A stretch of DNA of 64,000 nt from positions 1,984,001 to 2,048,000 of the forward strand of contig NZ_CP007174.1 in assembly GCF_000730285.1 (NCBI RefSeq), given 5' to 3'. The notes under the pieces were generated by a model, which saw only the letters and a list, made by a program, of their open reading frames with translations, was not told where the DNA came from and did no database searches. The first letter of the stretch is position 1, and each line of letters begins with the position of its first letter. The stretch comes from Candidatus Nitrososphaera evergladensis SR1. Lineage in GTDB: Archaea; Thermoproteota; Nitrososphaeria; Nitrososphaerales; Nitrososphaeraceae. The position numbers and the translations under genes were made by a program. Positions 10,396 through 41,797 of this stretch are shown here, piece after piece.

Positions 10396-10423
10396 GGCTT
10401 TGGAGGGAAAAATAACACACACA

Positions 10424-23054: not shown

Positions 23055-23063
23055 CTAAACTAC

Positions 23064-24164: not shown

Positions 24165-24179
24165 TAAACTACCAAAAAC

Positions 24180-25028
24180 TCATACCGAGTCCACGCGGAA
24201 GCTACTACCAGTAAGAAGCTCCTTGTGGAATTCAAAATCGTTATCTTGTAGTCTGCGAAGAAATCGAGACAAATGATTATATTCGATAAGGTATTGGCAA
24301 TCTAGTTTTGGACTTTTCTTGCTAGATGAAACTCCAATTGAAATGTCTGCCTTTCTAAAAGCAGGATTGTCATTCTCAGAATCACCAAGATACAATATAG
24401 GCCCTTTACTATAATCATCCATCTCAGCTATTATCCGATCAAATCCAAATCCCTTGTCGCATTGTGCAGCGTGAACGTCAAGGAAAGGATAAGAATCATA
24501 CGTTTGCAAGAACGGGCTGGATGAACAATCTCTGGGCATAGTCGATACTTTCTCCTTTACATATTGCGTGATTATCCAATAATTCCTCCTGTATTCCTTG
24601 TGATTCCTCCAATCAAAAGTTATGCTGGCTAACAGCCCATCATATGTAAATCGTCGAACGGTCTCGATGCCGGGAAATTTTATTCCTACATCACGTGCTA
24701 GCTGGTTCAACGCATAGCCACGTCTATGCAAGATATCTCTTTCGAGTAGCAAGTGACGCGTCTTGACTTTGCATCCTTTTTTGGTCTTTGTTCTATCAAA
24801 GACAATCGTTTCGATTCCTAGAATGCATGAAACTATATTAGCAAATGGCACTCTGCCACCAAGAGACTCATAGTCGTTTCTTGACAGGATACAAACGGGA
24901 ATATGATCGGCTATTTCTGACAGGATAATCTCTAGTTCTTTTGGTATTGCATCCTTACTTTTAGAGTTGCTGGCTGGATACAATGTACCATTATAATCAG
25001 AGATTATCGCACAGACTCGTTTAGTCAT
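24180..25028 (-). CDS. HAD-superfamily phosphatase-like protein with altered motif I
   Basis: A 282-residue Cof/trehalose-phosphatase-like HAD protein. Motif I reads AIISDYNGTLYP, so the second Asp of DxDGT, the general acid/base, is Asn. Motif II is VCILSRND and motif IV is ILYLGDSENDNPAF. The substrate is not defined; sugar-phosphates are usual for this subtype. The Asn change may slow or remove hydrolysis. Its stop lies 6 bp beyond the target duplication of the IS, so the insertion just missed the gene. Confidence 0.7.
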   Translation of the reverse strand: MTKRVCAIISDYNGTLYPASNSKSKDAIPKELEIILSEIADHIPVCILSRNDYESLGGRVPFANIVSCILGIETIVFDRTKTKKGCKVKTRHLLLERDILHRRGYALNQLARDVGIKFPGIETVRRFTYDGLLASITFDWRNHKEYRRNYWIITQYVKEKVSTMPRDCSSSPFLQTYDSYPFLDVHAAQCDKGFGFDRIIAEMDDYSKGPILYLGDSENDNPAFRKADISIGVSSSKKSPKLDCQYLIEYNHLSRFLRRLQDNDFEFHKELLTGSSFRVDSV

Positions 25029-25068
25029 ATTGTTTCAGCTCCTTTGCCAATTAGACTAGATGCTACGA

Positions 25069-25971
25069 TCAAATTTCAGCAACTCTGACACCTCTGAGCC
25101 TCAAATAATTGAGGTTGTTTCGGATAGTTACCTCTGTTACTCCTGCCACTTCTGCAATACTTTTCAGGGTCGCACCTTCTTTGTTTCTTAGGCAACACAT
25201 GTAAAGAACTGTTGCTGCAATCCCCGTAGGATTCTTTCCTGCCGATGCCCCTTTTTCGACAACAGAGTCCATAGTGGTCAACGCCATTCGTTTGGTTTTC
25301 TCGCTGACTCTTGCTTTATTTGCAATCGTTCCAATCCACCTCTTCGGATCGGCCAGAGGTACTTTGATGTCAAGCTCGCGGACAAGTGCCCTATAACTTC
25401 TCGAAATCTCTTTCCTCTTGACGTAGGTGATTTCGGATATGTCTTTGAGAGTTCTTGAAACTCCCGCTTCTCTGCATGCAATGTACGCAGCCGCAACTAG
25501 GACAGAAGATGTCGATCTCCCCTTCATCAGTTGCTTTTCTAGAGCTTTTCTGTAGATATATGCTGTCTTTTCAACAATTGAATCTGATAGACCAAGTTTG
25601 GCCTTTAATCCGCTAAGCCCGTCAAAAGCCATAACACGGCTCGGGTTAGTTTTTGTTCTAAAATCCCACCTTCTAAGCCTCTGCATTGTTGCATGCGTGG
25701 ATGCATCCAACCTGCGTCCGCTAGAATCCCTGTTGGCCCTGCTTATCATTGTGGCCAGTCCCATATCGTGTTGGGTAAGAGATATTGGAGATCCTGTTCC
25801 CGCACCGTTATTCTTTTCAGCATCAAAAGAGTACCATTTTGGACGGCTGTCCAGTGTCTTATCGGATAATACGCGTCCACAGCTACTGCACACTACCTCC
25901 CCCAATTCAGGGTCAGTAACAGGAACACCGTTGTTGCACACCGAACACAGCATTGACACTCGCATTACCAT
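25069..25971 (-). CDS. tfb: Transcription initiation factor IIB (TFB)
   Basis: A 300-residue TFB. The N-terminal zinc ribbon uses C9-x2-C12 and C28-x2-C31 (MLCSVCNNG and VVCSSCGRVL). The B-finger region is RPKWYSFDAEKNN, followed by two cyclin repeats (about 110-195 and 205-298); the second ends with a helix-turn-helix IAEVAGVTEVTIRNNLNYL. TFB recruits RNA polymerase to TATA-bound TBP. Thaumarchaea carry many TFB paralogues; this one, in an accessory region, is likely one of the specialised copies. Confidence 0.9.
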   Translation of the reverse strand: MVMRVSMLCSVCNNGVPVTDPELGEVVCSSCGRVLSDKTLDSRPKWYSFDAEKNNGAGTGSPISLTQHDMGLATMISRANRDSSGRRLDASTHATMQRLRRWDFRTKTNPSRVMAFDGLSGLKAKLGLSDSIVEKTAYIYRKALEKQLMKGRSTSSVLVAAAYIACREAGVSRTLKDISEITYVKRKEISRSYRALVRELDIKVPLADPKRWIGTIANKARVSEKTKRMALTTMDSVVEKGASAGKNPTGIAATVLYMCCLRNKEGATLKSIAEVAGVTEVTIRNNLNYLRLRGVRVAEI

Positions 25972-26007
25972 GAACCAGTCACCTTTTGAGGATTAATCGA
26001 AAAATCT

Positions 26008-26223
26008 CTAGAATGATCCACCCTTGTTCCCTCTGTTGATTGATGAAACGTATCTCATAGTTCTTTCTAACATTTCGAGTCGCTGGTCAAGAGACTGTCT
26101 TAGAACAATTACTTCATGAGTAAGCTCATGTATTTCCGCGGCTACCTCCTCGTTGAATGAAGCATTACACCTGCTGCATCGAGTAGTCTTTGAATCATCA
26201 CTTCGTAAAAGTACCATCTTCAA
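26008..26223 (-). CDS. 71-residue C2H2 zinc-finger/coiled-coil protein
   Basis: The N-terminal part holds TTRCSRCNASFNEEVAAEIH followed by ELTHE, a C-x2-C-x12-H-x3-H finger. A coiled-coil helix (VIVLRQSLDQRLEMLERTMR) follows, probably for dimerisation, and a glycine-rich tail GNKGGSF. It lies 36 bp upstream of the TFB gene on the same strand, so it may be co-transcribed with it. It is probably a small DNA- or protein-binding factor. Confidence 0.65.
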   Translation of the reverse strand: MKMVLLRSDDSKTTRCSRCNASFNEEVAAEIHELTHEVIVLRQSLDQRLEMLERTMRYVSSINRGNKGGSF

Positions 26224-26644
26224 TTAGGATTTTCAGGCTGAACAATAAAAGCTTGTTATGTAGATTCCAGAAATTTCGATAATTAGTAATTTGAGCAAAG
26301 GCAGGCACATGAAGCTCTTTTATGTAATTCTAACAACTCTGAGAATTTAGAATTTTCCTAACCGTACGTTTAACTAGCCAAGGGTCAATTGCAAGCTGCC
26401 AACTCGGCAAGGTGAAAATGAGTGTCAAGTCAGGATTCCTCGCAAACCACGGTCACGCCACCCCAGAATACGACATCCAGTCCAGCTCCCGCAAAGGCAA
26501 AGAAGAGAAAGACTGGATCTCCTGCTGCCAGCCAATCGCAACCGGCTCCGAATTAGGGAGCCCTTCTCTTTTTATGGTGCACGCCAAGCCGTATGATTGT
26601 GGCCTACATAATCCTGCTATGTGTTTGGAGAGGTATAATACGTG
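26224..26644. other. Intergenic region upstream of the C2H2 gene and behind pckA
   Basis: 421 bp without a supported gene. The frame at 26412-26780 runs into the end of pckA on the other strand and lacks a recognisable domain. AT-rich motifs resembling GAATTTAGAATT occur near 26340-26355, and similar ones stand upstream of pckA (28308-28335). These could be shared regulator sites, but this is weak. Confidence 0.4.
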
Positions 26645-28246
26645 CTATCTGATCTGTGGTCCCGCCACTGAGAGTCTCTTCGCAACATCTCCGAACTTTT
26701 CAAAGTTCTTTATGAACATAGACGCGAGTTTCTTAGCCTGCTTTTCATATTCAAGCTTTTCTTTCCACATCCTTTTCTGATCCAGAACTTCTGGAGGTAC
26801 ACCGGGGCACGACAACGGTACATCAAGATTGAAAATCTCATCTTTCTGCCCTTGAATACTATCAAGCGTTCCATCTAGGGCCGCTGTCACCATCGCCCTA
26901 GTGTATTTCAATTCTATTCTCTTGCCTATCCCGTACGGGCCACCGATCCATCCAGTATTAACCAAGTAAACTCGGGACCCGTGCTTCTTGATTTTCTCAC
27001 CAAGAAGACGTGCGTACACTAGTGGATGACGGGGCATAAAAGGCGCGCCAAAGCATTCCGAAAATGTCTCCTTTGGCTCCGTTATTCCTCTCTCTGTTCC
27101 GGCCAGTTTGCTTGTATATCCTGACAAAAAGTGGTACATGGCACCTTCTATCGAGAGTTTGGATATAGGCGGCATTACTCCAAAAGCATCTGCGGTGAGA
27201 AATATGATAACGTCTGGATGACCGCCTATGCTCGGTTTTACGGAGCCGGGTATATGATCGAGCGGATAGGCTACCCGTGTATTTTCAGTGAGCCTTGCAT
27301 CGGAGTAATCCGGCTCGCGGGTGTCATCTTTTATGACAACGTTCTCCATGATCGAGCCAAACTTGATCGCATTCCATATCTGGGGTTCGTTTTCTTCTTT
27401 GAGGTTGATGCACTTCGCATAACACCCTCCTTCAAAATTGAATACGCCTGTTTCGGACCAGCCATGCTCGTCATCGCCTATTAGACTCCTCCCTGGATCC
27501 GCAGAAAGTGTGGTCTTGCCAGTACCTGATAGCCCGAAGAAAAGTGCTACTTGGCCGGAATTATCGACATTGGCCGCACAATGCATCGGGAGAACGCCTT
27601 CTTCGGGCAGAAAATAGTTCATAGCGGAGAACATGGCTTTTTTTATTTCTCCAGCGTATGAAGTGGATCCAATTAACACTATGTGTCTGCTTAAATTCAA
27701 GACAATAAAAGTCTCGGATCTCGTGCCATCCACAAGAGGCATCGCCTTAAAATCGTTCATCGACAATAGGAGAAAATCTGGCTTGAAGGATTCCAATTCC
27801 TCTTTTGAGGGTTTGATAAAAAGCTGACTTGCGAAGAGGCACTGCCAAGCCCGGTCTGTTATGACGCGTACACCAAGCCTCCCGTTTTCGGGGTTGGCCC
27901 CAACAAACCCATCGAATACAAAGAGATCCTTATGCGACATGTAGGATCCCATCCCAAAGAATATTTGTTCGAATTTGTCTGGCGAGATGGGGCGATTAAT
28001 ATGGTTCCAGTTTACAGTATCACGCGTGACGTCATCAAGAACTATGTATCTGTCTTCAGGCGATCGCCCTGTGAATCTTCCCGTTTCGACGCAGAAGGCG
28101 CCATTGGAAGCAAACCTCCCCTCTTTCAGGCGCAGCGCATGCTCAAGAAGACACGGTACTGAAAGGTTCATGTAAGTGCGGTCAGTTGAGGGAATTCGAA
28201 AATCAGATTCTGGTGCATTGACATCCTGCTGATCCCTATTCGGCAC
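26645..28246 (-). CDS. pckA: Phosphoenolpyruvate carboxykinase (ATP)
   Basis: A 533-residue enzyme of normal ATP-PEPCK length. Signatures are GRFTGRSPEDRYIV (substrate site), the P-loop FFGLSGTGKTTLSADP, the metal/kinase motif LIGDDEHGW, and the adenine-binding LVNTGWIGGPYGIGKRI. It interconverts oxaloacetate and PEP with ATP, linking the dicarboxylates made by carbon fixation to gluconeogenesis. A minus-strand TATA-like ATTAAATATA lies near 28267-28276. It is transcribed alone. Confidence 0.95.
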   Translation of the reverse strand: MPNRDQQDVNAPESDFRIPSTDRTYMNLSVPCLLEHALRLKEGRFASNGAFCVETGRFTGRSPEDRYIVLDDVTRDTVNWNHINRPISPDKFEQIFFGMGSYMSHKDLFVFDGFVGANPENGRLGVRVITDRAWQCLFASQLFIKPSKEELESFKPDFLLLSMNDFKAMPLVDGTRSETFIVLNLSRHIVLIGSTSYAGEIKKAMFSAMNYFLPEEGVLPMHCAANVDNSGQVALFFGLSGTGKTTLSADPGRSLIGDDEHGWSETGVFNFEGGCYAKCINLKEENEPQIWNAIKFGSIMENVVIKDDTREPDYSDARLTENTRVAYPLDHIPGSVKPSIGGHPDVIIFLTADAFGVMPPISKLSIEGAMYHFLSGYTSKLAGTERGITEPKETFSECFGAPFMPRHPLVYARLLGEKIKKHGSRVYLVNTGWIGGPYGIGKRIELKYTRAMVTAALDGTLDSIQGQKDEIFNLDVPLSCPGVPPEVLDQKRMWKEKLEYEKQAKKLASMFIKNFEKFGDVAKRLSVAGPQIR

Positions 28247-28442
28247 ATAGAACGCGAATCGCCGACTATATTTAATCGTCCCCCGAGCTATTCTACATAA
28301 TTGTAAAATTCCAAGAATTATTAGAAATTCACACCTTCCGTCGCAAAGGGTAGGTTAAGTGCATCAAGCAGCCTCTGGGCGCCGTCCTACGCGTATTTTC
28401 AACCGCTACAAAGATGGTGCAGGAAGTGCCTATTCAGGAACG

Positions 28443-29447
28443 TTAGTGCGGAGATATGATTTCAATCCCGGAAAGGCTCTTGGAATTTTCTAACGCCTTG
28501 ACATACTCGCCCTCGGTAAACACGCCTTGCTGCAGATATAGACTTTTGAATTTCCTCCCGTCATCTGCAAATATGCCTACCAGAACCCCCTTTTCCAACC
28601 TTTCAGCTACCTTGATCATCGACGACATGACGGAGCCTGATGAAGGGCCTACCAAGAGTTTTTCTTTTCTCGAAAGCATTTCCACTGTATCAAAAGATTC
28701 CTTGTTGGTGGCGGTAATCCATTCGTCAACAACTCCAACGCGGCGCTTGAAAAGATCTGGCATTGCCGACTCTTCAAAATTCCTAAGACCCTGTAGCAGA
28801 TGATTCTTCTGTGCCTGCACGGCGATTATTTTGACATCCTTATTTTGCTCTTTTAGATAGGTCGCAGTTCCAGTAATCGTTCCGCCAGTACCGCATCCCG
28901 CGATGAAGTGGGTGACTTTGCCGCGAGTCTGATTCCATATCTCCGGACCAGTACTTTCATAATGAGCAAGAAAGTTGGCTTCGTTCTCGTATTGATTTGG
29001 CATGTAGTAAATATCTGGCCGGGGTTTTGCAATCGCTTTTGCAAGGGCAATGCTTTGATCGGTACCTGCTCCAACACGCGGACAAAGGTCATCCGATGTC
29101 TCGTGTAACGTGGCCCCAAGTTTTCGAAGTATCGCTTTTGTTTCCTCGCTTGCCTTCTCGGGCACGACCAGCTCGACTTTATATCCAAGTACGCGGGCTA
29201 TTCCTGCCAAGGCGATACCTGTATTTCCGGAAGTGGGTTCAATAATTGCGCTTTTGGCTTTCTTCAGGATACCTCTTTTCTCAGCATCTTTTATCATCCA
29301 GTACGCTGCCCTGTCTTTGACCGAACCGAACGGATTGCAAAATTCTAATTTTGCATAGAATTTGATACTATTGGTGGAAAAAGAAGACAATTCTGCCAGG
29401 GGCGTGTTACCAATTTTATGGTCTATGTTGGAATCTGTGGTTGTCAT
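28443..29447 (-). CDS. cysM: Cysteine synthase family PLP enzyme
   Basis: A 334-residue fold-type II PLP enzyme. The Schiff-base lysine lies in NPFGSVKDRAAYWM; the substrate loop is IEPTSGNTGIAL; the phosphate loop is AGCGTGGTITGTA; and GPSSGSVMSS is the C-terminal PLP motif. It makes cysteine from O-acetyl- or O-phosphoserine; which donor is not visible. The regulator gene upstream begins 17 bp after the enzyme's start on the same strand, suggesting one transcript. Confidence 0.9.
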   Translation of the reverse strand: MTTTDSNIDHKIGNTPLAELSSFSTNSIKFYAKLEFCNPFGSVKDRAAYWMIKDAEKRGILKKAKSAIIEPTSGNTGIALAGIARVLGYKVELVVPEKASEETKAILRKLGATLHETSDDLCPRVGAGTDQSIALAKAIAKPRPDIYYMPNQYENEANFLAHYESTGPEIWNQTRGKVTHFIAGCGTGGTITGTATYLKEQNKDVKIIAVQAQKNHLLQGLRNFEESAMPDLFKRRVGVVDEWITATNKESFDTVEMLSRKEKLLVGPSSGSVMSSMIKVAERLEKGVLVGIFADDGRKFKSLYLQQGVFTEGEYVKALENSKSLSGIEIISPH

Positions 29448-29463
29448 TCCCTATTGTTCCCAC

Positions 29464-30078
29464 CTATTGTTCGTCGCTTGCATATCCTTTATCAATCAGA
29501 AATTTCTTGAACTCATCAGATTCTGTTATCATGAGATCAACTGATCGAAGAAGCGTCGCATAAAAGAATTCCATAGCTTCATGGCTTCTCTGGCAGTTTG
29601 GGCAGATGTTGGTCTGTTTGGTTGGCAAGAATCGCTGGAGCTCTTTTTTTGTACTGAAATGGTCGTATGTCTCTCGGAGAGCCTTCATTACAGGCTGCCG
29701 AATTTCTTCTGTTATCCTTTCATGCAAGCCGCTGACCTTCAGAGCCGCATCAAACTCTTCATCAATTCCATACTTGCCCCACGTACTTCTTTCGCATACA
29801 AAGCGTTTCCTTCTCTCCCCCTTGCCTTTCTTTTCCCTTGGATATAGGAAGATGAACTGCAATCGGTAAAGCTCTTTGAGTGTAGAATATACCACACTAG
29901 CAGGGATCTTTTCCTTTTGTGTGATCTCTTCTGCAGTGATGCCCTTGGCCCCTGCTTGTCTAATGTAGTTCATAATGCGCCAAGTAGTTTCCTTTGAGAG
30001 GATGTCTGCTTCAAGGTACGATGTGACTGGAAAATGTGTAAGGTAAGTCTTAATATTCTTCATCTTTGCAGTTTGCAA
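29464..30078 (-). CDS. Winged-helix regulator with C-terminal CxxC-H segment
   Basis: A 204-residue protein. Residues about 20-95 form a MarR/ArsR-like winged helix (IRQAGAKGITAEEITQKEKI, PASVVYSTLKELYRLQFIFL). The C-terminal half holds NICPNCQRSHEAMEFF, a possible metal or redox site. It probably controls the cysteine synthase gene that follows it. The start is a TTG at 30078, about 30 bp from a TATA-like element near 30103-30113; the ATG at 30063 is an alternative. Confidence 0.7.
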   Translation of the reverse strand: MQTAKMKNIKTYLTHFPVTSYLEADILSKETTWRIMNYIRQAGAKGITAEEITQKEKIPASVVYSTLKELYRLQFIFLYPREKKGKGERRKRFVCERSTWGKYGIDEEFDAALKVSGLHERITEEIRQPVMKALRETYDHFSTKKELQRFLPTKQTNICPNCQRSHEAMEFFYATLLRSVDLMITESDEFKKFLIDKGYASDEQ

Positions 30079-30409: not shown

Positions 30410-32500
30410 GTGTCAGAAACAGCATTAATCATTGATGGAGGCTACTTGATTCTCTTTCAAGCGGCCGCTCTCTCGTTTGTTTTAGGCGCGCTCTTGCCGC
30501 TTGCCTTTAGGAAAGACAAGAATGCCAGCGTCGCTTCGTTTGCGCCTGCTGCTCTGGGCTCGGTCCTGACGATTGCACTTGCAGCGTCGCTTGCAATATC
30601 GGGTGCAACACTTGAAGTGCCCCTGCCCTTTGCCGCTGCTGCGCCTGAGATAGAATTCCAGTTTTACATCGACGGCATGTCCGCGTTTTTCATGCTGATA
30701 ATAGGTCTTGTGACACTTGCAGTGTCGATATACTCGATAGGCTACAGCAGCGAGTACTATGGAAAGCGCAGCATAAAGGCTCTTGGGCTTCTCTTCAACC
30801 TCTTCGTGCTTTCCATGATACTTGTCACGGCATCAGACAACGTGTTCTCATTCTTGGTTTTCTGGGAGGCCATGTCGCTTGCCTCGTTCTTTCTGGTTAT
30901 CTACGAGCACGAAAACGAGAGCAACATCAAGTCGGGCATGACATATATTGTGATGACTTATCTGGGTACGGCGTTTATTCTAGGGGCGTTTCTTGCGCTG
31001 TACTTCCAGACGGGGAGCCTGTCCTTCGACTCGTTCCGGAGCTCCGAGCCGCCCATGCCCGCGTACATCAGGGACATCGTCTTTGTCCTTGCGCTTGTCG
31101 GGTTTGGCACAAAGGCAGGTCTCGTGCCTTTGCATCTCTGGCTCCCGCAGGCGCACCCTTCAGCCCCAAGCAACGTGTCTGCGCTCATGTCAGCCGTCAT
31201 GATAAAGATGGCAATCTATGGCCTTGTGCGAGTCACGCTGGATTTCACGTCGCCAAGCTCGCCCGACTCTGCATGGTGGGGCATGCTCATGGTGGTCGCC
31301 GGTTCCGCGTCAGCGCTCATCGGCGTTTTATATGCCGCGATTGAAAAGGACATCAAACGCGCGCTCGCGTTTAGCAGCATAGAGAACATAGGCATAGTCA
31401 TCCTCGGCCTAGGCCTCTCTGTCATTTTCCTTTCTTTCGACCTGAAGGCGCTAGCAGCGGTCGCGCTTCTTGCAAGCACGTACCATTCGCTCAACCACGC
31501 CGCCTTCAAGAGCCTGCTTTTCATGGGCGCCGGCTCTGTTCTCTTTGGCACTCACACGAAAAACATGGAAAAGCTGGGCGGGCTTGCAAAAAAGATGCCG
31601 TGGACTGCATTTTTCTTCCTCATAGGCGCCATTTCAATCTCTGCCCTGCCGCCGCTCAACGGATTTGTGAGCGAGTGGCTTACGATGCAGGCGCTGCTCT
31701 CCTCCTACCAGGTGCCAAACGTCATACTACAGATATCCATCAGCTTTGCTAGCATCGCGTTTGCGCTCACGGCGGGGATAGCGCTTGCAACATTTGTCAA
31801 GATGTTTGGCATCTCTTTTCTCTCAAGGCCCCGCTCGGAGGCAGCCGTGCATGCAAAGGAGGTCCCGAAGACCATGATTGCAGGGATGGGCGTGGCCGCG
31901 GCCATGTGCATCGCCTTTGGCATCATGCCATTCCTGGCCGCGGGCATGATTGCTTCGTCGTTTGGGTTGGATCCGCAATTTAGCGATGCCATGTCGCCCT
32001 TCAGCTCGCTATCGGTGCTTTACAGTGCCGGCGGCATAGAATCCATAAGCAGCATGTCGATGCCTGCAGTGGCAATTATGATGGGCTCAGTTGCTGCAGC
32101 AGTCGTGGGCTTTGCAGTAGTTGCAGGTTCGAGAAAGACTGCGAGGAGAATTTACAGCACGTGGGACTGCGGATTTGGCGAGCTTAATGAGCGGATGGAA
32201 TACACCGCGGCTTCGCTCTCACAGCCTATCCGCACCGTGTTCCGTATCCTCTACAAACCGCGCATGGCAGTAACCAAGGAAAATTACTCTGACTCTAACC
32301 CGTACATCAAAAAATCCATGCGCGTCGAGTCTGAAACCAAGGACGTATTCGAGGACCGGCTTTATTCGCCCGTGGTCGGCGCGACTATAGCTTTTTTTGA
32401 CAAGATACGTATGATACAGACGGGCAAGGTCAACGCGTACCTTCTTTACGTCATGGTAACGCTTGCACTGTTGCTGCTTCTGGCGAGGTTGATATCCTGA
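30410..32500 (+). CDS. hyfB: HyfB/NuoL-like antiporter subunit of an Ehr-type complex
   Basis: A 696-residue membrane protein with about 16 helices. It carries the proton-antiporter core seen in HyfB, MbhH and NuoL: LALVGFGTKAGLVPLHLWLP, then AHPSAPSNVSALMSAVMIKM, plus broken-helix and lysine residues in the later YHSLNHAAFKSLLFMGAG. In complexes of this type it moves protons or sodium as electrons pass through the peripheral subunits. It starts at GTG and overlaps the next gene by one base. It is the first gene of a six-gene operon. Confidence 0.9.
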   Translation: MSETALIIDGGYLILFQAAALSFVLGALLPLAFRKDKNASVASFAPAALGSVLTIALAASLAISGATLEVPLPFAAAAPEIEFQFYIDGMSAFFMLIIGLVTLAVSIYSIGYSSEYYGKRSIKALGLLFNLFVLSMILVTASDNVFSFLVFWEAMSLASFFLVIYEHENESNIKSGMTYIVMTYLGTAFILGAFLALYFQTGSLSFDSFRSSEPPMPAYIRDIVFVLALVGFGTKAGLVPLHLWLPQAHPSAPSNVSALMSAVMIKMAIYGLVRVTLDFTSPSSPDSAWWGMLMVVAGSASALIGVLYAAIEKDIKRALAFSSIENIGIVILGLGLSVIFLSFDLKALAAVALLASTYHSLNHAAFKSLLFMGAGSVLFGTHTKNMEKLGGLAKKMPWTAFFFLIGAISISALPPLNGFVSEWLTMQALLSSYQVPNVILQISISFASIAFALTAGIALATFVKMFGISFLSRPRSEAAVHAKEVPKTMIAGMGVAAAMCIAFGIMPFLAAGMIASSFGLDPQFSDAMSPFSSLSVLYSAGGIESISSMSMPAVAIMMGSVAAAVVGFAVVAGSRKTARRIYSTWDCGFGELNERMEYTAASLSQPIRTVFRILYKPRMAVTKENYSDSNPYIKKSMRVESETKDVFEDRLYSPVVGATIAFFDKIRMIQTGKVNAYLLYVMVTLALLLLLARLIS

Positions 32501-33447
32501 TGGCTGAGGCCCTGACGATAGCAGTAGGAATAGCACAGACAAGTGCAATAGTTGCCCTTGCCCCGCTCCTGACAGGCGTCATGAGAAAGGTAAAGGCAAG
32601 GACGCAAAAGAGGGTGGGGGCAAGCGTCCTCCAGCCGTACTACGACCTTGCAAAGCTGATGAAAAAGGACGAAGTCGTCTCGGACCAGAGCTCCTGGGTA
32701 TTCCGCTCTGCTCCGTGGGTCGTGATGGTAGCAATGATTACGGCCGCGCTATTCGTGCCTGCATTCTTGCCGTTCAGCCCATTTGGCACTGTCGGAGACA
32801 TACTGGTGGTGTTGGGGCTGTTCGGCCTCGCGCGCTTTTTCACGATGCTTGTAGGACTTGACGTCGCAAGCACGTTCGGCGGCCTCGGAGCAAGCAGAGA
32901 GATGATGATATCTTCACTGACCGAGCCAGCGCTATTTCTGACGATATTTGTCGTGTCGCTCTCGCTCGGCGGGACGAACCTCTCAAGCCTGGTTGGGGCA
33001 GCGGCGCAATACGCCGGCTTTGCAGAAGCCCCGAGCATGCTATTTGCCCTGATAGCCTTTTTCATTGTTCTGCTGGCCGAGACGGGAAGGCTGCCGTTCG
33101 ACAACCCTGCGACGCACCTTGAGCTCACGATGGTTCATGAGGCTATGGTGCTAGAATACTCGGGAAAGAGCCTTGCGATGGTCCAGTGGTCGCAGTCGAT
33201 AAAGCAACTGCTCCTATTTGCCCTTCTGGTAAACCTGTTTATTCCCGCCGGCATCCCTGCGAGCCTGGACTCGGGCTGGTCGGTCGCCGCGGGCGCCGCC
33301 GGATTTGTGGCAAAGGTTGTGCTCCTTGCAATGCTCGTGGCATACGTGGAGACGCGAGCCGCCAAGTGGAGGCTCTTTCGGGTGCCGGACCTGCTCGCAA
33401 TGGCTATAGCAAGCTCGATGATAGGAGTGATCTTTTTCTATTTATGA
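32500..33447 (+). CDS. hyfC: HyfC/NuoH-like membrane anchor subunit
   Basis: A 315-residue protein with eight helices. Conserved NuoH-family features are KARTQKRVGASVLQPYYDLA, the quinone/partner loop AETGRLPFDNPATHLELTM (with the E/D pattern of the family) and a C-terminal RVPDLLAMAIASSMIGVIF. This subunit docks the peripheral arm and couples it to ion movement. Its ATG overlaps the stop of hyfB (TGATG). Confidence 0.92.
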   Translation: MAEALTIAVGIAQTSAIVALAPLLTGVMRKVKARTQKRVGASVLQPYYDLAKLMKKDEVVSDQSSWVFRSAPWVVMVAMITAALFVPAFLPFSPFGTVGDILVVLGLFGLARFFTMLVGLDVASTFGGLGASREMMISSLTEPALFLTIFVVSLSLGGTNLSSLVGAAAQYAGFAEAPSMLFALIAFFIVLLAETGRLPFDNPATHLELTMVHEAMVLEYSGKSLAMVQWSQSIKQLLLFALLVNLFIPAGIPASLDSGWSVAAGAAGFVAKVVLLAMLVAYVETRAAKWRLFRVPDLLAMAIASSMIGVIFFYL

Positions 33448-33456
33448 TAGGAGGGA

Positions 33457-34134
33457 GTGGTCGTGGAAATTCCACCGATTGACATATTGACAATTTCGTC
33501 AGCAGGACTCCTCATAGCGACGTTCGGGGTAGTCGTCAGAAGGGGCTTTGCGGATTGGCTCAGCGCCTACCGCTACCAGACGGTGGTCCTGGCCGCGGTG
33601 ACTGCGGTGATAGCGTACTTTACCGGCGTGTGGGAGATTTACGTGGCAGCCGCGCTGACGCTCGTAATAAAGGCGATAATAATCCCAAAGGTGCTCCTGC
33701 GAGTCACCAAGAAAATCAAAGACGAGTTCAAGATAGAGACAAACCCGTACGTGAGCCTCAGGCTGTCAGTCTTGATATCGGCTCTACTGGTCGCGCTCTC
33801 GTACGCGCTGACCCAGCAGATGTTCCCTGCGTCGAGCCTTGACAGGGTGACCATGATGTACCTGCCGGTGTCAATCTCCCTCTTTTTCATCGGCCTGTTC
33901 GTCATGGTGAGCAGGAGGATGGCGCTCAACCAGGTGGTCGGGCTTTTGATAATCGAAAACGGGCTTTTCCTGTTCACAACCGCATTAACACACGGAGTTT
34001 CGCTGATTATAGAGATAGGAATTTTCGTGGACATTCTGATAGGGATCATCATCTCTGCAATTCTCATCTTCCGGATTAGTCGGACGTTTGACACCTTGGA
34101 CATAGGCAGCCTCGAGAAGCTGAGGGATGACTGA
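33457..34134 (+). CDS. hyfE: HyfE/NuoK-like membrane subunit
   Basis: A 225-residue protein with about seven helices, the usual length of HyfE. The NuoK-like C-terminal core includes LNQVVGLLIIENGLFLFTTA, with the membrane-embedded Glu of IENG. It starts at GTG 33457, 9 bp after hyfC, and ends 2 bp before hyfF. Confidence 0.88.
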   Translation: MVVEIPPIDILTISSAGLLIATFGVVVRRGFADWLSAYRYQTVVLAAVTAVIAYFTGVWEIYVAAALTLVIKAIIIPKVLLRVTKKIKDEFKIETNPYVSLRLSVLISALLVALSYALTQQMFPASSLDRVTMMYLPVSISLFFIGLFVMVSRRMALNQVVGLLIIENGLFLFTTALTHGVSLIIEIGIFVDILIGIIISAILIFRISRTFDTLDIGSLEKLRDD

Positions 34135-34136
34135 AA

Positions 34137-35759
34137 ATGACTGAATGGGCCTTGTTGGTTGGTGCTACATCGGCGGCGTTTCCTACTGCGTCAAGCGTGT
34201 TGATATTTTCCCTGCTCCTAACGCCAGTGGCAGGAGCCCTCTTTGTTACGCTTTTCCGCAAAAAAAGGGCCGCGGAGCTGATAACGGTCGTTTCGGCGTC
34301 GTTAATACTGATACAGGCCCTAGGTCTTGTTGCAGATGTGATTGTTGAAAAAAAGATCTCTGCTTTTGGCGAGTTGTTCTTTTTCGATGCCTTTGGTGCA
34401 CTGATTATGCTCCCAATTGCAGGAGTCGGTTTCGTCTCCGCGCTATATTCGATCAACTACATGGGGAGGCAATACGAACATGGCTTGGTTGATGACAAGC
34501 ATATCATCAGATACTATCAGGGATTCAATGTCTTTCTGCTGACCATGTTGCTGGTGCCTGTATCTAACAACATGGGTGCAATGTGGGTAGCCATAGAGGC
34601 CACGACTCTGGTGTCTGTCTTGCTGATAATGCTCTACACAAAGGAAAGTGCCATAGAAGCGGCGTGGAAGTATCTGATAATCGCGACAGTTGGTCTGTCA
34701 TTTGCGCTGTTTGGGACAGTATTTTTCTACTACGCCAACGTCACCGCGATCTCGCCCTCTGCCGAAGCAGAACCTAGCTCCGCCATGAACTGGACAGACA
34801 TGGTTTCTCACTCCAAACTGCTTAATCCAGACATCGTCAAGATCGCCTTCATCTTTATCCTAGTCGGCTTTGGAACAAAAGCAGGTCTAGCTCCGATGCA
34901 TACATGGCTTCCAGATGCGCACAGCGAGGCCCCGACGCCGGTCAGCGCACTGCTCTCGGGAGTGCTGCTCAATTGCTCAATTTACAGCATCATAAGATAT
35001 CATATAATAACATCCGGAACGGTCGGGTCTGCGTTCTCAAACCAGTTGCTGATAATACTTGGGGTTGTATCTGTAGGTATTGCAGCGGCATCAATATACT
35101 TCCAGAAGGACATGAAACGCATGCTTGCCTATTCAAGCGTCGAACATATGGGAATAGTCTCCCTGGCTATGGGTTTTGGCGGATTTATAGGAATATACGG
35201 TGCACTACTTCACATCATAAACCATGCTATTGCCAAACCACTGATGTTCTTTGCGAGCGGAACAATAAGCCAAAAGTACGAGACAAAGACCATGTCGGGA
35301 ATCAGAGGCATTATCAAGATCATGCCAATCACAGGTGTGCTTTTTCTAATCGGAGGGCTCGCCATCGTAGGCATGCCCCCGTTCAACATCTTTGTGAGCG
35401 AGTTCATGATATTGAGCTCCGGATTCGGAAGCGGTCAGTTTGTCGCAAGTTCGCTTGTCATTACATTCCTAGTAATAATATTTGCAGCCTTCATGCGACA
35501 CCTCATAAAGATGGTCTTCGGCAGCCCCAAAGAATCTGGAAGAGGAATGTCTGAGGATTCGATCGCAAAGAAGGATGAAATGGGCAAGCTCGCAATAATA
35601 CCGATGATAATTCTGGCGATATTTGCAGTCATACTCGGTTTCTATATCCCGTCACCTATACAGACCTTGGCGAACGATGTCATGCAGATTTTTAACCAAG
35701 GGTCTATTGCTGCAGCGTTCCCCACATCAGATTTGGTTTCGGGAGTTGAGTCAGGATAA
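34137..35759 (+). CDS. hyfF: HyfF/NuoN-like antiporter subunit
   Basis: A 540-residue membrane protein with about 14 helices. The antiporter signature is LVGFGTKAGLAPMHTWLPDA, then HSEAPTPVSALLSGVLLNCS; VEHMGIVSLAMGFGG and IINHAIAKPLMFFASG carry the later conserved residues. With hyfB it gives the complex two antiporter-like subunits. Codon use from here to the large subunit is more AT-rich than in hyfB, hyfC and hyfE. A 107-bp gap follows before hyfG. Confidence 0.9.
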   Translation: MTEWALLVGATSAAFPTASSVLIFSLLLTPVAGALFVTLFRKKRAAELITVVSASLILIQALGLVADVIVEKKISAFGELFFFDAFGALIMLPIAGVGFVSALYSINYMGRQYEHGLVDDKHIIRYYQGFNVFLLTMLLVPVSNNMGAMWVAIEATTLVSVLLIMLYTKESAIEAAWKYLIIATVGLSFALFGTVFFYYANVTAISPSAEAEPSSAMNWTDMVSHSKLLNPDIVKIAFIFILVGFGTKAGLAPMHTWLPDAHSEAPTPVSALLSGVLLNCSIYSIIRYHIITSGTVGSAFSNQLLIILGVVSVGIAAASIYFQKDMKRMLAYSSVEHMGIVSLAMGFGGFIGIYGALLHIINHAIAKPLMFFASGTISQKYETKTMSGIRGIIKIMPITGVLFLIGGLAIVGMPPFNIFVSEFMILSSGFGSGQFVASSLVITFLVIIFAAFMRHLIKMVFGSPKESGRGMSEDSIAKKDEMGKLAIIPMIILAIFAVILGFYIPSPIQTLANDVMQIFNQGSIAAAFPTSDLVSGVESG

Positions 35760-35866
35760 ATGTTTGATTTTGTGATCGAAGTCTTCGTAATGGATCTTTT
35801 TATGAAGAACCCGGCTGCACCCCGAGTAAATGACAGGATACAAAGAATTACAGCAAGAGGTGGAAC

Positions 35867-37570
35867 ATGGATATGATGCTGGGAGGAGATGCAACTGACC
35901 ATTCCAACACAGCGAAGTACAAATCAGCGATACTCCAAAAACTAGGCAAGAAGGTAAGAGGAATTCATATTCTGAATGGCAATGAAATCCACGTCATATT
36001 ATCAACCAAGGAAGAAATCCCGGAATCATGCTATTATGTGCACAAGGATCTGAAGACAAAGCTTGCAACTGTAATCTGTAGCGACGAGCGTCTGGCAGGC
36101 CGCGGCTTTATGCTCAGATACGTTTTTGCAAAAGAAAACGGAGAGGACGTGTTCATCATTTTAACTGCGAGAATAAAGGAAAACGATGACTCTGCAGGCG
36201 GGCGACATTTAACTTTCCCAAGCATAGCCCTTCACATTCCCTCGGCCGCGCTTTATGAGAGAGAGATTAAGGACATGTTTGGCATCTGGCCTGACGGCAA
36301 CCCCGACACAAGACCTCTCGTGCTTCATGAACAGTGGCCGGAAGACGTCCATCCTCTAAGGAAGGATTTCGACATTAATTCAAAAATTCCTCGGATTTAC
36401 AACCGCGAGTATCCGTTTACAAAGGTGGAAGGCGAAGGCGTGTGTGAAATCCCCGTCGGACCTGTGCACGCGGGCATAATCGAACCAGGACACTTCAGAT
36501 TCAGCGTTCTGGGAGAGAACATCATCAACCTTGAAACACGCCTTTTCTATACACACAAGGGCACAGAAAAGCTGGCCGAAAGCATGAACCTTGACCAGGT
36601 CTTGTTGCTCAGCGAGCGAATATCCGGAGATGAAGCCGTGGCCAACTCGATGGCATACTGTCAGGCATTGGAAAGGATTGCAAGGGCAAATGTGCCAAAA
36701 AGAGCACTTCAGATAAGAACTATCTGCGCGGAGATGGAGAGGATATACAACCACCTTGGAACGCTTGCGGGCATGTCAACTGACGTGGGATTTGCCTATG
36801 GCGCGTCTAGGCTCAACATACTCAAGGAAAGGATGATGCAGCTCAACGAATACGTGTCAGGTAGTCGGCTTCTGTTTGGTGTTAACAGGATAGGTGGAGT
36901 GGGCATAGACCTGATGGACGATAAGCTGAAGCATGTCGTAAACACTACGAACCTTTTGTCGGAGGATTTTCAACGCGTGATATCGATGCTGAAGGACAAG
37001 TCGTCGGTAATGGACAGGATGCGAAACACAGGAATAATAACGAGGAGGGTGGCCGCTGATCTTGGGCTTGTGGGAGTAGCCGCAAGGTGCGCGGGCATAG
37101 ACGCAGATACAAGGCGAGACCATCCTTACGCCGAATACGATTCCCTTCGTCTTGATATGCGCCATGACACGCCCCAGCATCTGATGGAATACGAGATAGA
37201 GATGCAAAAAATGAAAGGAGATGCATTGTCGCGGTTCGAAGTTAGGGTAGAAGATGTTGTAAATTCGATCAGCATTGTGAACGAAGTGATAACTAATCTA
37301 CATAGTGACAATGTACTCGTTGTCGCTGATGTCGTGGACCGACTTGAACCTTACAGTCACGCGCTTGGCTATGCGGAATCACACAGAGGTCAGACAATAC
37401 ACTGGGTGATGATAGGGGAGGATTGCAATTCACTCTCTAGATACAAGATTAGAACAGCGTCATTTGTTAACTGGCCTGCGATAGAGCAGGCTGTGCTCAA
37501 CGACATAGTCCCCGACTTTCCACTTGTAAACAAAAGCTTGGACCTTTCGTATTCGGGGAATGACCTATGA
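35867..37570 (+). CDS. hyfG: HyfG-like large subunit lacking the NiFe cysteines
   Basis: A 567-residue fusion. Residues about 20-180 are the NuoC/30-kDa domain (YEREIKDMFGIWPD); the rest is the NuoD/hydrogenase large subunit fold (EIPVGPVHAGIIEPGHFRFS). In NiFe hydrogenases an ERxCGxC motif near this point and a C-terminal DPCxxC hold the metals. Here the first reads ERISGDEAVAN (residues 250-260) with Ser253 and Glu256, and the last reads DLSYSGND (559-566) with Ser561 and Gly564. All four cysteines are gone, so no NiFe centre can form. It overlaps hyfI by 4 bp. Confidence 0.9.
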   Translation: MDMMLGGDATDHSNTAKYKSAILQKLGKKVRGIHILNGNEIHVILSTKEEIPESCYYVHKDLKTKLATVICSDERLAGRGFMLRYVFAKENGEDVFIILTARIKENDDSAGGRHLTFPSIALHIPSAALYEREIKDMFGIWPDGNPDTRPLVLHEQWPEDVHPLRKDFDINSKIPRIYNREYPFTKVEGEGVCEIPVGPVHAGIIEPGHFRFSVLGENIINLETRLFYTHKGTEKLAESMNLDQVLLLSERISGDEAVANSMAYCQALERIARANVPKRALQIRTICAEMERIYNHLGTLAGMSTDVGFAYGASRLNILKERMMQLNEYVSGSRLLFGVNRIGGVGIDLMDDKLKHVVNTTNLLSEDFQRVISMLKDKSSVMDRMRNTGIITRRVAADLGLVGVAARCAGIDADTRRDHPYAEYDSLRLDMRHDTPQHLMEYEIEMQKMKGDALSRFEVRVEDVVNSISIVNEVITNLHSDNVLVVADVVDRLEPYSHALGYAESHRGQTIHWVMIGEDCNSLSRYKIRTASFVNWPAIEQAVLNDIVPDFPLVNKSLDLSYSGNDL

Positions 37571-38400
37571 TCGGAAAGATTGGCAAGCGCGCAAACAGCG
37601 GCTCTGCGGACATCGTGGGCAACAGCATCGAAACCGTTGGCGATCCGATAAAGGACATTCATGCTTTCCCGAATTACCGGGGCAGGGTTTCGCTTGCCGA
37701 AAAGGCCGGACTGCCACTTGAAAATTATGAAGCTGCAGAAGAGATCTGCGCGTCGGGGGCAATCAAGATACAGGCCTGTGGAGACAAAGAAAAGATAACT
37801 CTTGACATGGGCAAGTGCTTTTTGTGCGGAAGGTGTCAGGAAGTGGCGCCGGACCTGCTCAGGGTTGAAAGCGCGTTTGCCATCCCTGTAAGGAAAAGGG
37901 AAGAGCTGATAGAATCGCTTGACGGAATCGCGCCGGCAGAAGAATCCTTTGAAAAAATGGGCAAGGAGCTAAAGGAGAAGGTGGGCAAGATTCTTGGGAG
38001 ATCGCTTGCTGTGCGGGAGGTAGACGCCGGCTCGTGCAACGGCTGCGAAGTCGAGATAACCGCGCTCAACAACCCCGTCTACGACATAGAGAGGTTCGGC
38101 ATCCATTTCGTGGCGTCGCCGCGACATGCAGACGTGCTACTTGTCACCGGGCCGGCGTCAAGGAACATGGAAGTGGCGCTGAAAAGGACGTACGAGGCTA
38201 CGCCGGACCCAAAGATAGTAGTCGCTGTCGGCGCGTGCGGGTGCAGTGGGGGCATATTTGGCGACACCTACGCGACTACGGGCGGAATTGACAAGATGGT
38301 GCCTGTCGACGTGTACATACCCGGCTGCCCGCCAAGGCCGGAGGCTATACTGTACGGGCTCTTGCTGGCAGTCGATAGGATTCCGGAAAAACACGGCTAG
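37567..38400 (+). CDS. hyfI: HyfI/NuoB-like small subunit fused to a one-cluster ferredoxin domain
   Basis: A 277-residue protein. Residues about 55-105 are ferredoxin-like: C61 in EICASGAIKI plus C84, C87 and C90 in KCFLCGRCQEVAP, the four ligands of one 4Fe-4S cluster; the second cluster's ligands are missing. Residues about 145-277 are the small-subunit domain with the proximal cluster: C157 and C160 in GSCNGCEVEI, C224 in GACGCSGGIFG and C254 in PGCPPRPEA. It should relay electrons between an outside carrier and the large-subunit pocket. It closes the operon. Confidence 0.88.
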   Translation: MIGKIGKRANSGSADIVGNSIETVGDPIKDIHAFPNYRGRVSLAEKAGLPLENYEAAEEICASGAIKIQACGDKEKITLDMGKCFLCGRCQEVAPDLLRVESAFAIPVRKREELIESLDGIAPAEESFEKMGKELKEKVGKILGRSLAVREVDAGSCNGCEVEITALNNPVYDIERFGIHFVASPRHADVLLVTGPASRNMEVALKRTYEATPDPKIVVAVGACGCSGGIFGDTYATTGGIDKMVPVDVYIPGCPPRPEAILYGLLLAVDRIPEKHG

Positions 38401-39142
38401 GAAAAGTACGGGCTCAGAGGGACTACTTCAAGCTTCTGTTACACAAGCTCAAGACTGAAAGTATTCGACAAGGATGCTCCGCAAGAATGCTGTACGCAAT
38501 AGCAAAGCCTGCAGATTTGCCATTTCAAGTGGAATCCGCTTCTTGCCTGACATTGATTACTTGGATTACTATATTGGTGAAGAAGTTTATGCATTTTGTC
38601 GCATTGACATCGGATAAGGTGATCATGCGGCAGAAACCCTCTAGAGGACAATGACGCGGCTTCAGAAAATAGGTGATAGATTATCACTACAATTAAGATA
38701 GATGTCGTAAGGTAGGCTGAAATGGCGTGGGAGTAGCATCAGAGCGACAAGAATGAATAAAACGACGAATGACCGACGGCTAAATCTTATCATGCAACGA
38801 TGCGGAGCGGAAGAAAAATGTATGATAAGGTAAAAGAAAATTGAACATGAAAATGGATAATGCGGGGAGAATTTTTTGGCACCAGCAACAACCGACCTTC
38901 TGGCGTCAAAAGTCCATGTAACATCTTTGCCATTCTTCTGCATAACTCCTGCAAGCGCTGAAAGTGCAAAACCTGTGCTTTTTGGCAGCAATGTCCTTTT
39001 TGATTCAATTCAGCATCCATAACCAAGCTTTGACAGATGGGTCTTAAGGTCGTTGGATCAGTTCTACTTCTGGTCCTACGATCATTGACAGTTATGATTC
39101 CTATGCCTGATGCAACTTGCACCACTGACCCCTAGATATGCT
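38401..39142. other. Gene-poor interval with possible decayed minus-strand gene
   Basis: No intact gene. On the minus strand two overlapping frames could be pieces of one frameshifted gene: 39125 down to about 39000 (VQVASGIGIITVNDRRTRSR) and about 38995 down to 38850 (TGFALSALAGVMQKNGKDVT). The joint is near an A-run at 38996-39001. No family is recognised and both pieces may be chance. No terminator is seen directly after hyfI. Confidence 0.35.
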
Positions 39143-39374
39143 TGGTGCCACTTCTGGTGCCAAATAGCACATCAATTGTCCTGCAAGTTGGCACCAGTGG
39201 TGCCAGATCATACGTTTGAAGTGGTACCACTGGTACCAAAATCCCTCTTCTGGTGCCAAAAATGATACCACTGGTATCACGCAGACTGCACAAATGTGAC
39301 TGGAAATGAATCGATTTGTCTAAAGATGGGTTTGGTGCTACTGCACCCCGCCTGTTCTGGTACCGGTGGTACCA
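39143..39374. repeat. Array of 17-bp GGTACC/GGTGCC palindromes
   Basis: Four full 17-bp inverted repeats of the form TGGYACCASTGGTRCCA, or a close variant, occur: 39189-39205, 39222-39238, 39263-39279 and 39358-39374. TGGTGCCA half sites stand at 39143-39150, 39155-39162 and 39251-39258, and a degenerate copy near 39333-39348. Two of the gaps between starts are 33 and 41 bp. The density is far above chance. It may be a cluster of sites for a DNA-binding protein, such as a replication or partition iteron set. It stands upstream of the small gene at 39617. Confidence 0.65.
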
Positions 39375-39616: not shown

Positions 39617-39859
39617 TTGGAGGTGAATGATGCAACCACAGAGGAAACCGTAAACGATGTTCCTAGCAAGCAGACAAGAGTCAGAATCAACACAGAAATA
39701 GAAGGCGAGCCGGCAAAGATACTGCTTGAGCTGAAGCAGCGGGGTCTTGTTTCAGACAACACGGACGCTGTCAACCAAGGCCTGCTTGTGCTGTACGACA
39801 GGGTGCTCAAGCGCGATATGGCTAGACTTCAGCTGCAGCGGTTGAAAGAGGTCCAGTAG
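39617..39859 (+). CDS. Small probable ribbon-helix-helix-type protein
   Basis: An 80-residue protein starting at TTG 39617 or GTG 39623. After an acidic, disordered N-terminus it has a beta-strand/helix pattern TRVRINTEIEGEPAKILLEL, then KQRGLVSDNTDAVNQGLLVL, which resembles an RHH/CopG-type dimer, and a basic C-terminal helix. The call is by pattern only. Its 3' end overlaps the end of the convergent nuclease-like gene by 38 bp. Confidence 0.5.
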   Translation: MEVNDATTEETVNDVPSKQTRVRINTEIEGEPAKILLELKQRGLVSDNTDAVNQGLLVLYDRVLKRDMARLQLQRLKEVQ

Positions 39860-41573
39860 GAAGGGTCTCTCCTTTTTCTTTCCCCTTGCTTCCCTCGTTG
39901 TCGCCTGCTTCAAGTTCTTCTTCAAACTTGAACACGCTGCTATTGGTTTTGATTGCCCGGTCCAAGACATCTGTTGCATCTTCTGGTTTCTCCCATACCG
40001 CGTCAAGCATCCTTCTGACATCGCGCTCGTCCCTTGCCGCCTTGCATATCTTTTGTACCGTCGCATCTTTTGGCACTCCTTTATCGCGCAGTTTTTCATT
40101 GAAATTAGCTGCTCTCAGGAGCTGGACATTCAGCCTTTCGGCGTACTGGGCCAGTGTGATTGTACTGTCGCTGTTATCTTTGCTATTGACCGTTGACACC
40201 TTTACGTGGATGTCCTCAAACGCTCCGCCGGCAAACACTCCTACAACGCCGTTCTTTACCTGCCTTTCCTCCGGAGTGTCGACGCCAAAGTCGGTGCTCC
40301 ATTTCAGCACGTTGAAAAAGTCATCCAAGTCCTTTCTTCTCACTAGCCCCCACTTGCATTCCAAGACGTATGTGACAGGTCTGGCAAATACTGAGGGTGT
40401 CACGGTCCATACTCTATCTACTTCTGCGTTTTGCCTTCTGTCTCCCACACTTTTTATCAAATGAAGAGTAATACGCCTTGGGTCCATCCTGCCGGTGCCG
40501 TTGTTCCGGTGGTTCTGTGTCCGAAACTCAGCTCCTATAGTAAACTTGTCAATGAACCATTCAACGCAGGCTTCCCAGTTGTGGCCTATCCGGTTTGCTC
40601 TCCCCTTGCTTATCCTGATGTAGTTTTTCGCCATCTCCAAAGCTGCGTTTAGGACCTCTTCGTTCATGGATTCATGGTAAAAGTAGCGGTAAGCGTCAAA
40701 GAGCTTTACCTCTCTGATAGAGGGATACAGCTTCGTGGCTCTGGCAATGGCAGATTCAACTTCGTTGTCTGTTGCTCTGAGCGCATCTTTGATCTGATTT
40801 ATGCTTGCGATTCTCCCAAGCTCTGTTTCGCTTACCACCAGGTTCCTTATTGCCAGCACCCGTTGTACCAGAGGGTTTGTTGACGCCTTGCTCTTTAGCG
40901 CTTCGTTTGTGCGCATGACAGCTTGCTTTAATGCATCAAGGTCGTCGCCGCCATCCTGCTGCTCAATCCATGTAATCAAATAGCCTTCCTGAAATGGTGA
41001 CTGCGAGTCATGGGTCTGATATCCCCTCACATACAGCAGCCCTTTCCTTTCGTACCTTCTGGCAGTGGTCATGATGTCCGGCATTGTTACCCCTTTTTCT
41101 TTCAGTGCATTGAAAATCTCGGTTGAATAGAATGCCCTGTCTGAATTCTCCTTGAGGAAATTCAAGACGAGCTGAGCCTTGCTTTTGCTGCCCCTGTTGC
41201 CACGCTTGTCCGAGTATTCGGAGCTGAATTGAACAAATCTGTGGCCGTCTATGACGAAAGGCGTATCTTCTGTGCGTGCCCTTTCTCCTTCCACTTCCCC
41301 TTGCCCTCTTTGACCGTTGATAACATACAAGTGAAACATTCTCGTATTGCTCCTGAATCCAGCTCGACCTTTGAACTGCTTGTTGTATTCAAACAGTGGT
41401 TTGTCTGTCCTTAAAATGAGGCGCTTCCTCCACATGTTTGACAGCAGATGGAATGTTGTCTTTTCGTCAATGCCTGTAGTGGTAACGACGTCTCTGGCTG
41501 ATTTTGGCCTGCCGTCTGCCAAAGCTGTCAGTACGGCTTTTACACAATAGTCTTTGCCATGTACAGCCATCAC
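39822..41573 (-). CDS. Winged-helix and PD-(D/E)XK nuclease-like protein
   Basis: A 583-residue protein. Residues about 10-60 and 130-200 are two winged-helix-like domains (KSARDVVTTTGIDEKTTFHL; FYSTEIFNALKEKGVTMPD). Residues about 340-470 look like a restriction-endonuclease fold: WEACVEWFIDKF (conserved E), AEVDRVWTVTP (D) and TYVLECKWGLV (E-x-K), then KNGVVGVFAGG. The C-terminal about 100 residues are helical and acidic, and end TGPLSTAAAEV. No methylase or helicase partner is adjacent. It could act in defence or in a mobile element's life cycle. I know no named family for this architecture. Confidence 0.65.
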   Translation of the reverse strand: MMAVHGKDYCVKAVLTALADGRPKSARDVVTTTGIDEKTTFHLLSNMWRKRLILRTDKPLFEYNKQFKGRAGFRSNTRMFHLYVINGQRGQGEVEGERARTEDTPFVIDGHRFVQFSSEYSDKRGNRGSKSKAQLVLNFLKENSDRAFYSTEIFNALKEKGVTMPDIMTTARRYERKGLLYVRGYQTHDSQSPFQEGYLITWIEQQDGGDDLDALKQAVMRTNEALKSKASTNPLVQRVLAIRNLVVSETELGRIASINQIKDALRATDNEVESAIARATKLYPSIREVKLFDAYRYFYHESMNEEVLNAALEMAKNYIRISKGRANRIGHNWEACVEWFIDKFTIGAEFRTQNHRNNGTGRMDPRRITLHLIKSVGDRRQNAEVDRVWTVTPSVFARPVTYVLECKWGLVRRKDLDDFFNVLKWSTDFGVDTPEERQVKNGVVGVFAGGAFEDIHVKVSTVNSKDNSDSTITLAQYAERLNVQLLRAANFNEKLRDKGVPKDATVQKICKAARDERDVRRMLDAVWEKPEDATDVLDRAIKTNSSVFKFEEELEAGDNEGSKGKEKGETLPTGPLSTAAAEV

Positions 41574-41719
41574 ATACTACACTCTCCTGCACATTTAAGG
41601 CGAGAAATGGAGTTCGAACGTCTGCATGTATTGTACAGTGCCGCAAAAAACTGGTCTAGGTTATTCTTGCCTATTTGCCAAAACAGAGCAGGAATATTGC
41701 TCCTTTGGACAAAGTAAGA

Positions 41720-41797
41720 TGGTGGATGGGGAGAGATTCGAACTCTCGACCACCTGTGTGTGAGACAGGTATCCTAACCAGGCTAGACCACCCATCC
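41720..41797 (-). tRNA. tRNA-Val(CAC)
   Basis: On the minus strand the acceptor GGATGGG pairs with CCCATCC. The anticodon arm is CCTGT-CTCACAC-ACAGG, with anticodon CAC reading GUG. The T arm is GAGAG-TTCGAAT-CTCTC. A73 is followed by an encoded CCA (41720-41722). No intron. It stands alone between the nuclease-like gene and ahcY, a frequent type of boundary for integrated DNA, although no att duplication was seen. Confidence 0.9.

Follow-up and report, generated by a model that had tools for sequence, protein, structure and literature searches.

The window (64,000 nucleotides of the Candidatus Nitrososphaera evergladensis SR1 genome, labeled G000 in genome comparisons) carries an intact open reading frame at 39822-41573 on the minus strand. 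It encodes a protein of 583 aa, with a GTG start codon and an ATG one codon later, and is referred to below as the signature gene. From the tRNA side inward, the locus is organized as follows (strand in brackets where assigned):

41720-41797 (-): tRNA-Val(CAC), the target gene, restored by the element (ARAGORN)
41722-41729 (-): 8-bp core CCATCCAC, tRNA-side copy
21098-41721 (-): whole integrated element at the 3' end of tRNA-Val, 20,624 bp between two core copies
41590-41721 (-): left arm, conserved DNA of about 130 bp from the tRNA end to the gene
39822-41573 (-): signature gene, with three winged helices, a PD-(D/E)XK-like nuclease and a helical C terminus; candidate integrase
39617-39859 (+): convergent small gene with a stop that overlaps the signature gene; 80 aa, possible ribbon-helix-helix protein
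39139-39374: palindrome array, TGGTACCA-type, common to G011
38815-39012: non-coding, with about 80% identity to the element of G011
30410-38400 (+): Ehr / complex-I-like operon, apparent cargo (Pfam on three ORFs)
21415-30078: remaining content, also including a HAD hydrolase
29464-30078: regulator
28443-29447: PLP-dependent enzyme
26645-28246: PEPCK, ATP-type
25069-25971: TFB
23075-24100: DDE transposase
21415-22311: rve-type transposase
21098-21123 (-): right arm GTGTGAAGTAGAGTGGTAAACTATAA; the far core follows at once
21090-21097 (-): 8-bp core CCATCCAC, far-side copy; outward of it, the ancestral tRNA-Val flank TTGATTTC

Both neighbors to which the first-pass annotation had drawn attention, the palindromes and the small convergent gene, are real. 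That annotation took 39822-41573 itself as the feature and missed the tRNA and the conserved arm upstream of it; the gene is one component of a 20.6-kb element. The Ehr complex, previously treated as a finding of its own, is part of this element.

Domain architecture of the signature protein

The signature protein matched no Pfam, NCBIfam or PADLOC family at its cut-off, and a sequence search of the PDB gave no meaningful match. Among nine homologues, six were matched by the Pfam MarR_2 model (best E = 3.9e-6). An AlphaFold2 model of the whole protein, built from 6 sequences, contains three winged helices (about residues 6-85, 132-202, and 234-300), where two had been proposed; the nuclease region and a helical tail follow C-terminally. 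Since the nuclease part was not resolved in this model, a second one was built for the nuclease fragment only, using a homologue from a thermophile (pTM 0.69, part of the core at low confidence). The best PDB matches of the fragment were PD-(D/E)XK enzymes (MspJI, Card1, Cap4, NucC, and NucS/EndoMS), MspJI being the only match with E < 0.001 (E = 7.6e-4). In the alignment, the motifs GHNWEA..E, AEVDRVW, and YVLECKW are kept across the nine homologues, and the E334/E338-D386-E405-x-K407 pattern fits a PD-(D/E)XK site, with E405 replaced by S in one homologue. The E-D-ExK pattern first read from the letters is therefore upheld, as is the absence of a methylase, none being present among the ORFs at 36.5-45.5 kb of the window. 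The homologue with the E405 replacement (locus L052 of G654, 9656-11269) is intact and reads SCKW; it is either an active-site variant or an inactive copy.

For the winged-helix array, the top PDB match was the DNA-bound TFIIIC tauB module (E = 8e-6, with a TM-score of only 0.15), which could reflect tandem winged helices in general. The tauB module binds the B-box of tRNA genes, the gene sequence of the T-arm.

Linkage to tRNA genes

The tRNA-Val gene of the window ends 147 bp upstream of the signature start codon, on the same strand. Identification by ARAGORN and direct reading placed a tRNA directly upstream in all homologues with enough 5' flank (24/24), with about 130-200 bp from the tRNA 3' end to the gene start. 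This set spans Nitrososphaeraceae, Bathyarchaeia, and other Thermoproteota, and includes intron-containing tRNAs and one degenerate tRNA; the targets vary, comprising at least Val, Leu (several), Gln, Phe, and Ala. With approximately 45 tRNA genes in 3 Mb, such linkage would arise by chance for one gene with an estimated probability of <1%.

The DNA between tRNA and gene is conserved in a fixed register, almost gap-free, although the tRNAs differ. When 22 left arms were placed in ungapped register, the mean information was 0.52 bit per column, compared with at most 0.20 in 200 shuffles. The window arm contains a dyad near +21 to +45 and a T-arm-like sequence, CGTTCGAACT, at 41611-41620 (+103); T-arm-like GGTTYGAACC (at least 7 of 10 positions) recurs at +102/+103 in most of the 22 arms. 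Immediately downstream of the discriminator base, the arms start with CCA or CTA. In the window, the encoded CCA (41722-41720) comes from the element, and the tRNA-Val of the empty site in G015 is without CCA.

Ends of the element

Homology of relatives to the ahcY-tRNA-Val side of the window ends at 41722. Near the signature gene, exact att copies of at least 12 nt were absent, and an ungapped att scan over 6-56 kb gave nothing convincing; the true cores are 8 bp, and the first repeat, that of G011, came from empty-site comparison. In G011 (locus L021), the signature gene adjoins an intron-containing tRNA-Gln, and the same site is empty in relatives G003 and G001. Homology to these empty-site relatives jumps from 8555 to 14139 of L021, delimiting a 5.6-kb insert whose far end carries an imperfect copy of the tRNA end. 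In G020 (locus L012), the far copy TCCCGCAC at 14152 delimits a 4.4-kb insert in tRNA-Leu. The sequence GTGTGAACnAnAGTGnnnnnCTATA precedes the far core copies in both genomes.

The far-end motif derived from G011 and G020 has one match in the window, 17/18 at 21099-21123 (shuffles reach 13). This match directly precedes CCATCCAC TTGATTTC, i.e., the tRNA-Val end and flank of the empty G015 site; similar flanks are also found in G005 and G017. As the far-end motif, the core, and the empty-site flank occur together at the predicted place, we assign the window element to 21098-41721. Searching 61 genomes with the right-arm pattern (≤1 mismatch) gave three occurrences, only in the carriers G000, G011, and G020, each at an element end. 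Three elements are thus bounded by empty-site comparison (5.6, 4.4, and 20.6 kb), and an 8-bp copy of the tRNA 3' end, consisting of the last acceptor-stem bases, the discriminator base, and C74, flanks each. Insertion at a tRNA 3' end, a direct repeat, and an empty site, the marks of a site-specific element, were found for G011, L012, and the window.

Two other boundaries were considered and rejected. For G654, a far end at a candidate core 58.7 kb away was dismissed, since 8-mers arise by chance and housekeeping-like genes lie inside. A larger window element starting at 19445 was likewise rejected: the far end is at 21090, and 19445-21089 is separate, G000-specific DNA. This segment sits between the far end of the element on one side and, on the other, the ancestral flank that the window shares with G015; it holds a winged-helix gene (HTH_45, 19453-19854) and an unassigned 107-aa ORF; it represents either a second, separate insertion in G000 or a deletion in G015.

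Element contents

The signature gene, the small gene, the palindromes, and the 38815-39012 stretch occur together in G011 at 77-80% nucleotide identity, next to a different tRNA; the rest of the content varies between elements. Homologues of the small gene sit downstream of the signature gene in Nitrososphaeraceae and Bathyarchaeia, in two bathyarchaeial cases at 5-7 kb with other genes between. Neighborhood conservation, proposed as a check of the first-pass annotation, thus holds for the small gene, and for the palindrome array in one relative, G011. No Pfam match was obtained for eight members; the small protein, which has an RVRIN strand followed by two predicted helices (read by eye), is a possible ribbon-helix-helix protein. 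The palindromes are possible operator sites of this protein. In G603, the small gene adjoins a HerA-type ATPase gene. In the bathyarchaeial elements L051 (9191-18783) and L053 (1501-12000), which belong to the same family, the small gene is followed downstream by genes for a HerA-type ATPase (matched by Pfam in L051) and a Glu-rich protein and by DNA methyltransferase-like genes; these elements may be conjugative or viral.

The Ehr operon appears to be captured cargo of the window element. In G015 it lies elsewhere in the genome, at about 577 kb, and its regulator gene (the counterpart of window 29464-30078) accompanies it there. The TFB (TFIIB) paralogue is a possible element-specific transcription factor. 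Two IS-type transposases are present in the window element; the small elements are without them. A second PEPCK gene adjoins tRNA-Gln in G011 and in the window genome (region L134); with the PEPCK gene inside the element, the window genome therefore probably has two.

Distribution and search for a recombinase

Signature homologues are patchily distributed: 6-7 of about 400 Nitrososphaeria genomes carry one, as do 19 of 398 genomes of Thermoproteota. Many of the copies are broken or decayed. The window protein shares about 50% identity with the bathyarchaeial copies. Scans of IMG/VR with the protein and the alignment revealed no relative, and tblastn of plasmid and phage collections gave no match. 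In a phylogenetic tree, the window and G020 proteins, which come from different genera and different tRNAs, are sisters (99/98); the protein of G011, which belongs to the same genus as the window, falls outside this pair. The sister pairing across genera and tRNAs points to horizontal movement and retargeting.

A PF00589 search of nine carrier genomes found no tyrosine recombinase in the element stretches (window, G011, G654, G598, and G603); in G603, the sole nearby match lies beyond the tRNA. Tyrosine recombinases are found elsewhere in most carrier genomes, and carrier genome G502 (a 93% complete MAG) has no PF00589 match at all. In the two small elements (4.4 and 5.6 kb), the remaining main ORFs gave no recombinase in Pfam or PHROGs, and no Cas1-like ORF was found; BLAST of one element end against the other, in G011 and in L012, revealed no terminal inverted repeats. 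The one gene common to all elements is the signature gene, and it abuts the arm at the tRNA end, where integrase genes usually lie. The lack of a recombinase match, together with this position of the single common gene, suggests that its protein integrates the element. With no known DNA-inserting enzyme encoded in the two smallest elements that were mapped, the winged-helix nuclease is the best candidate for this role.

Discussion

Judged from sequence comparison, the signature gene marks a family of mobile elements that insert at tRNA 3' ends in soil and sediment archaea and had previously gone unnoticed. Comparison of genomes demonstrates the insertion, the two ends, the duplicated 8-bp core, both arms, and the movement between tRNAs and hosts. 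The first-pass annotation had suggested a defense or mobile-element module of undescribed type. The mobile-element half of this suggestion is supported, in a more specific form, by the tRNA linkage and the bounded ends; the defense half is not supported, PADLOC having given no match. In the literature searched, no earlier description of this tRNA-inserting family was found.

We consider it probable that the signature gene is the core mobility gene of site-specific integrative elements at tRNA 3' ends in Thermoproteota, and that its protein is their integrase. A narrower proposal, to which we give slightly less than even credence, is that of a single-protein integrase class, in which TFIIIC-like winged helices read the T-arm/B-box and the nuclease, of restriction-endonuclease fold, cleaves the acceptor end with an 8-bp stagger. 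The winged helices would bind the T-arm (GGTTCRAATCC) common to all tRNA genes and also the related motifs of the arms, GGTTYGAAC / GTGTGAAC; the PD-(D/E)XK domain would cut with an 8-bp stagger at the acceptor-end core of both the target and the circular element, and the cohesive ends would be rejoined by the protein itself or by the host. The small convergent protein would probably repress or regulate through the palindromes. With such reading and cutting by a single protein, one enzyme family could insert at almost any tRNA gene. Indeed, B-box reading by tauB and the related motif in both arms suggest how one family may use many tRNAs; the link between the TFIIIC-like array and the B-box is a lead, not proof. 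We infer the catalytic role of the nuclease in integration, and several points count against an integrase: rejoining of DNA is not something that known PD-(D/E)XK enzymes do unaided; one intact homologue has S in place of E405; the nuclease model is of moderate quality (pTM 0.69, core residues low); the TFIIIC match has a low TM-score; and many copies are decayed.

Integration could instead be performed in trans by a recombinase of the host (XerA-like) or of another element, leaving the nuclease an accessory role as directionality factor, arm regulator, or immunity nuclease. The 8-bp core and arm sites do resemble tyrosine-recombinase attachment sites, and most carrier genomes have tyrosine recombinases elsewhere; thaumarchaeal att sites are generally short (median 17 bp, down to 8 bp; PMC6563490). 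Nevertheless, we regard this alternative as unlikely: the signature gene is present in every element, the smallest included, and stands without exception next to the arm at the tRNA end, a position that elements commonly give to their own integrase gene; and carrier G502 is without a PF00589 match. Less probable still is a homing-type nuclease that cuts the empty tRNA end, so that host repair copies the element in, and that may also punish loss of the element. The occupied site would be protected, since the arm interrupts the recognition sequence, and the gene sits exactly at the interruption. PD-(D/E)XK homing endonucleases do exist; I-Ssp6803I, for example, is likewise encoded at an interrupted tRNA gene, but it is intron-borne and has one target, whereas the signature gene belongs to long elements at many tRNAs. 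Moreover, homing copies between alleles; the elements described here carry 4-20 kb and move from one tRNA to another, unrelated one, acquiring a different 8-bp core at every move.

That the nuclease is a mere passenger, a modification-dependent (MspJI / Type IV-like) restriction enzyme on an element whose mobility gene was lost, is very improbable. MspJI is its best fold match and no methylase lies nearby, yet a passenger would not be expected to show 24/24 tRNA linkage and a conserved arm while the other element genes vary. A defense system or restriction-modification relic was set aside, with no known defense family detected by PADLOC and no adjacent methylase.

The closest known systems share some features with this family and differ in others. 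As described in PMC8371274 and PMC6563490, tyrosine-recombinase elements of Thaumarchaeota (ICE and cryptic integrated elements) share the tRNA 3'-end insertion with a restored tRNA, the short direct repeats, and the mosaic cargo. Unlike them, the signature-gene elements are without an internal tyrosine recombinase, their signature gene is not split, and a single family of proteins, together with conserved arms, covers many tRNAs. Casposons, too, are found in archaea, duplicate a short target, and use an integrase derived from a nuclease (Cas1), but no Cas1 or PolB was found here, the ends are two different arms, and the tRNA 3' end is the universal target. TnsA of Tn7-type elements, like the signature protein, combines a PD-(D/E)XK nuclease with a winged-helix part in site-specific insertion; it differs in its domain order, which is reversed, in its TnsB/C/D partners, absent here, and in having no sequence match to the signature protein. 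Rpn elements differ from the signature-gene elements in site specificity. The Rpn / PDDEXK_2 "PD-(D/E)XK nuclease family transposase" (arCOG10868, PMC4158269) also links this nuclease fold to recombination; the signature protein has no Pfam match to PDDEXK_2 or related models.

Archaeal integrated elements have been found mainly via tyrosine recombinases and signature genes, and those lacking a recombinase are usually ascribed to integrase loss (PMC8371274); the earlier survey of thaumarchaeal elements (PMC6563490) detected them through gene-poor islands, signature genes, and tyrosine recombinases. The elements described here form a coherent family across Nitrososphaeraceae and Bathyarchaeia, one that would escape such searches, and the element in the window apparently brought a whole energy-metabolism operon (Ehr) into the genome of an ammonia oxidizer. 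If the nuclease is indeed the integrase, these elements would move by a new recombination chemistry that targets tRNAs in general and whose link to B-box recognition can be tested.
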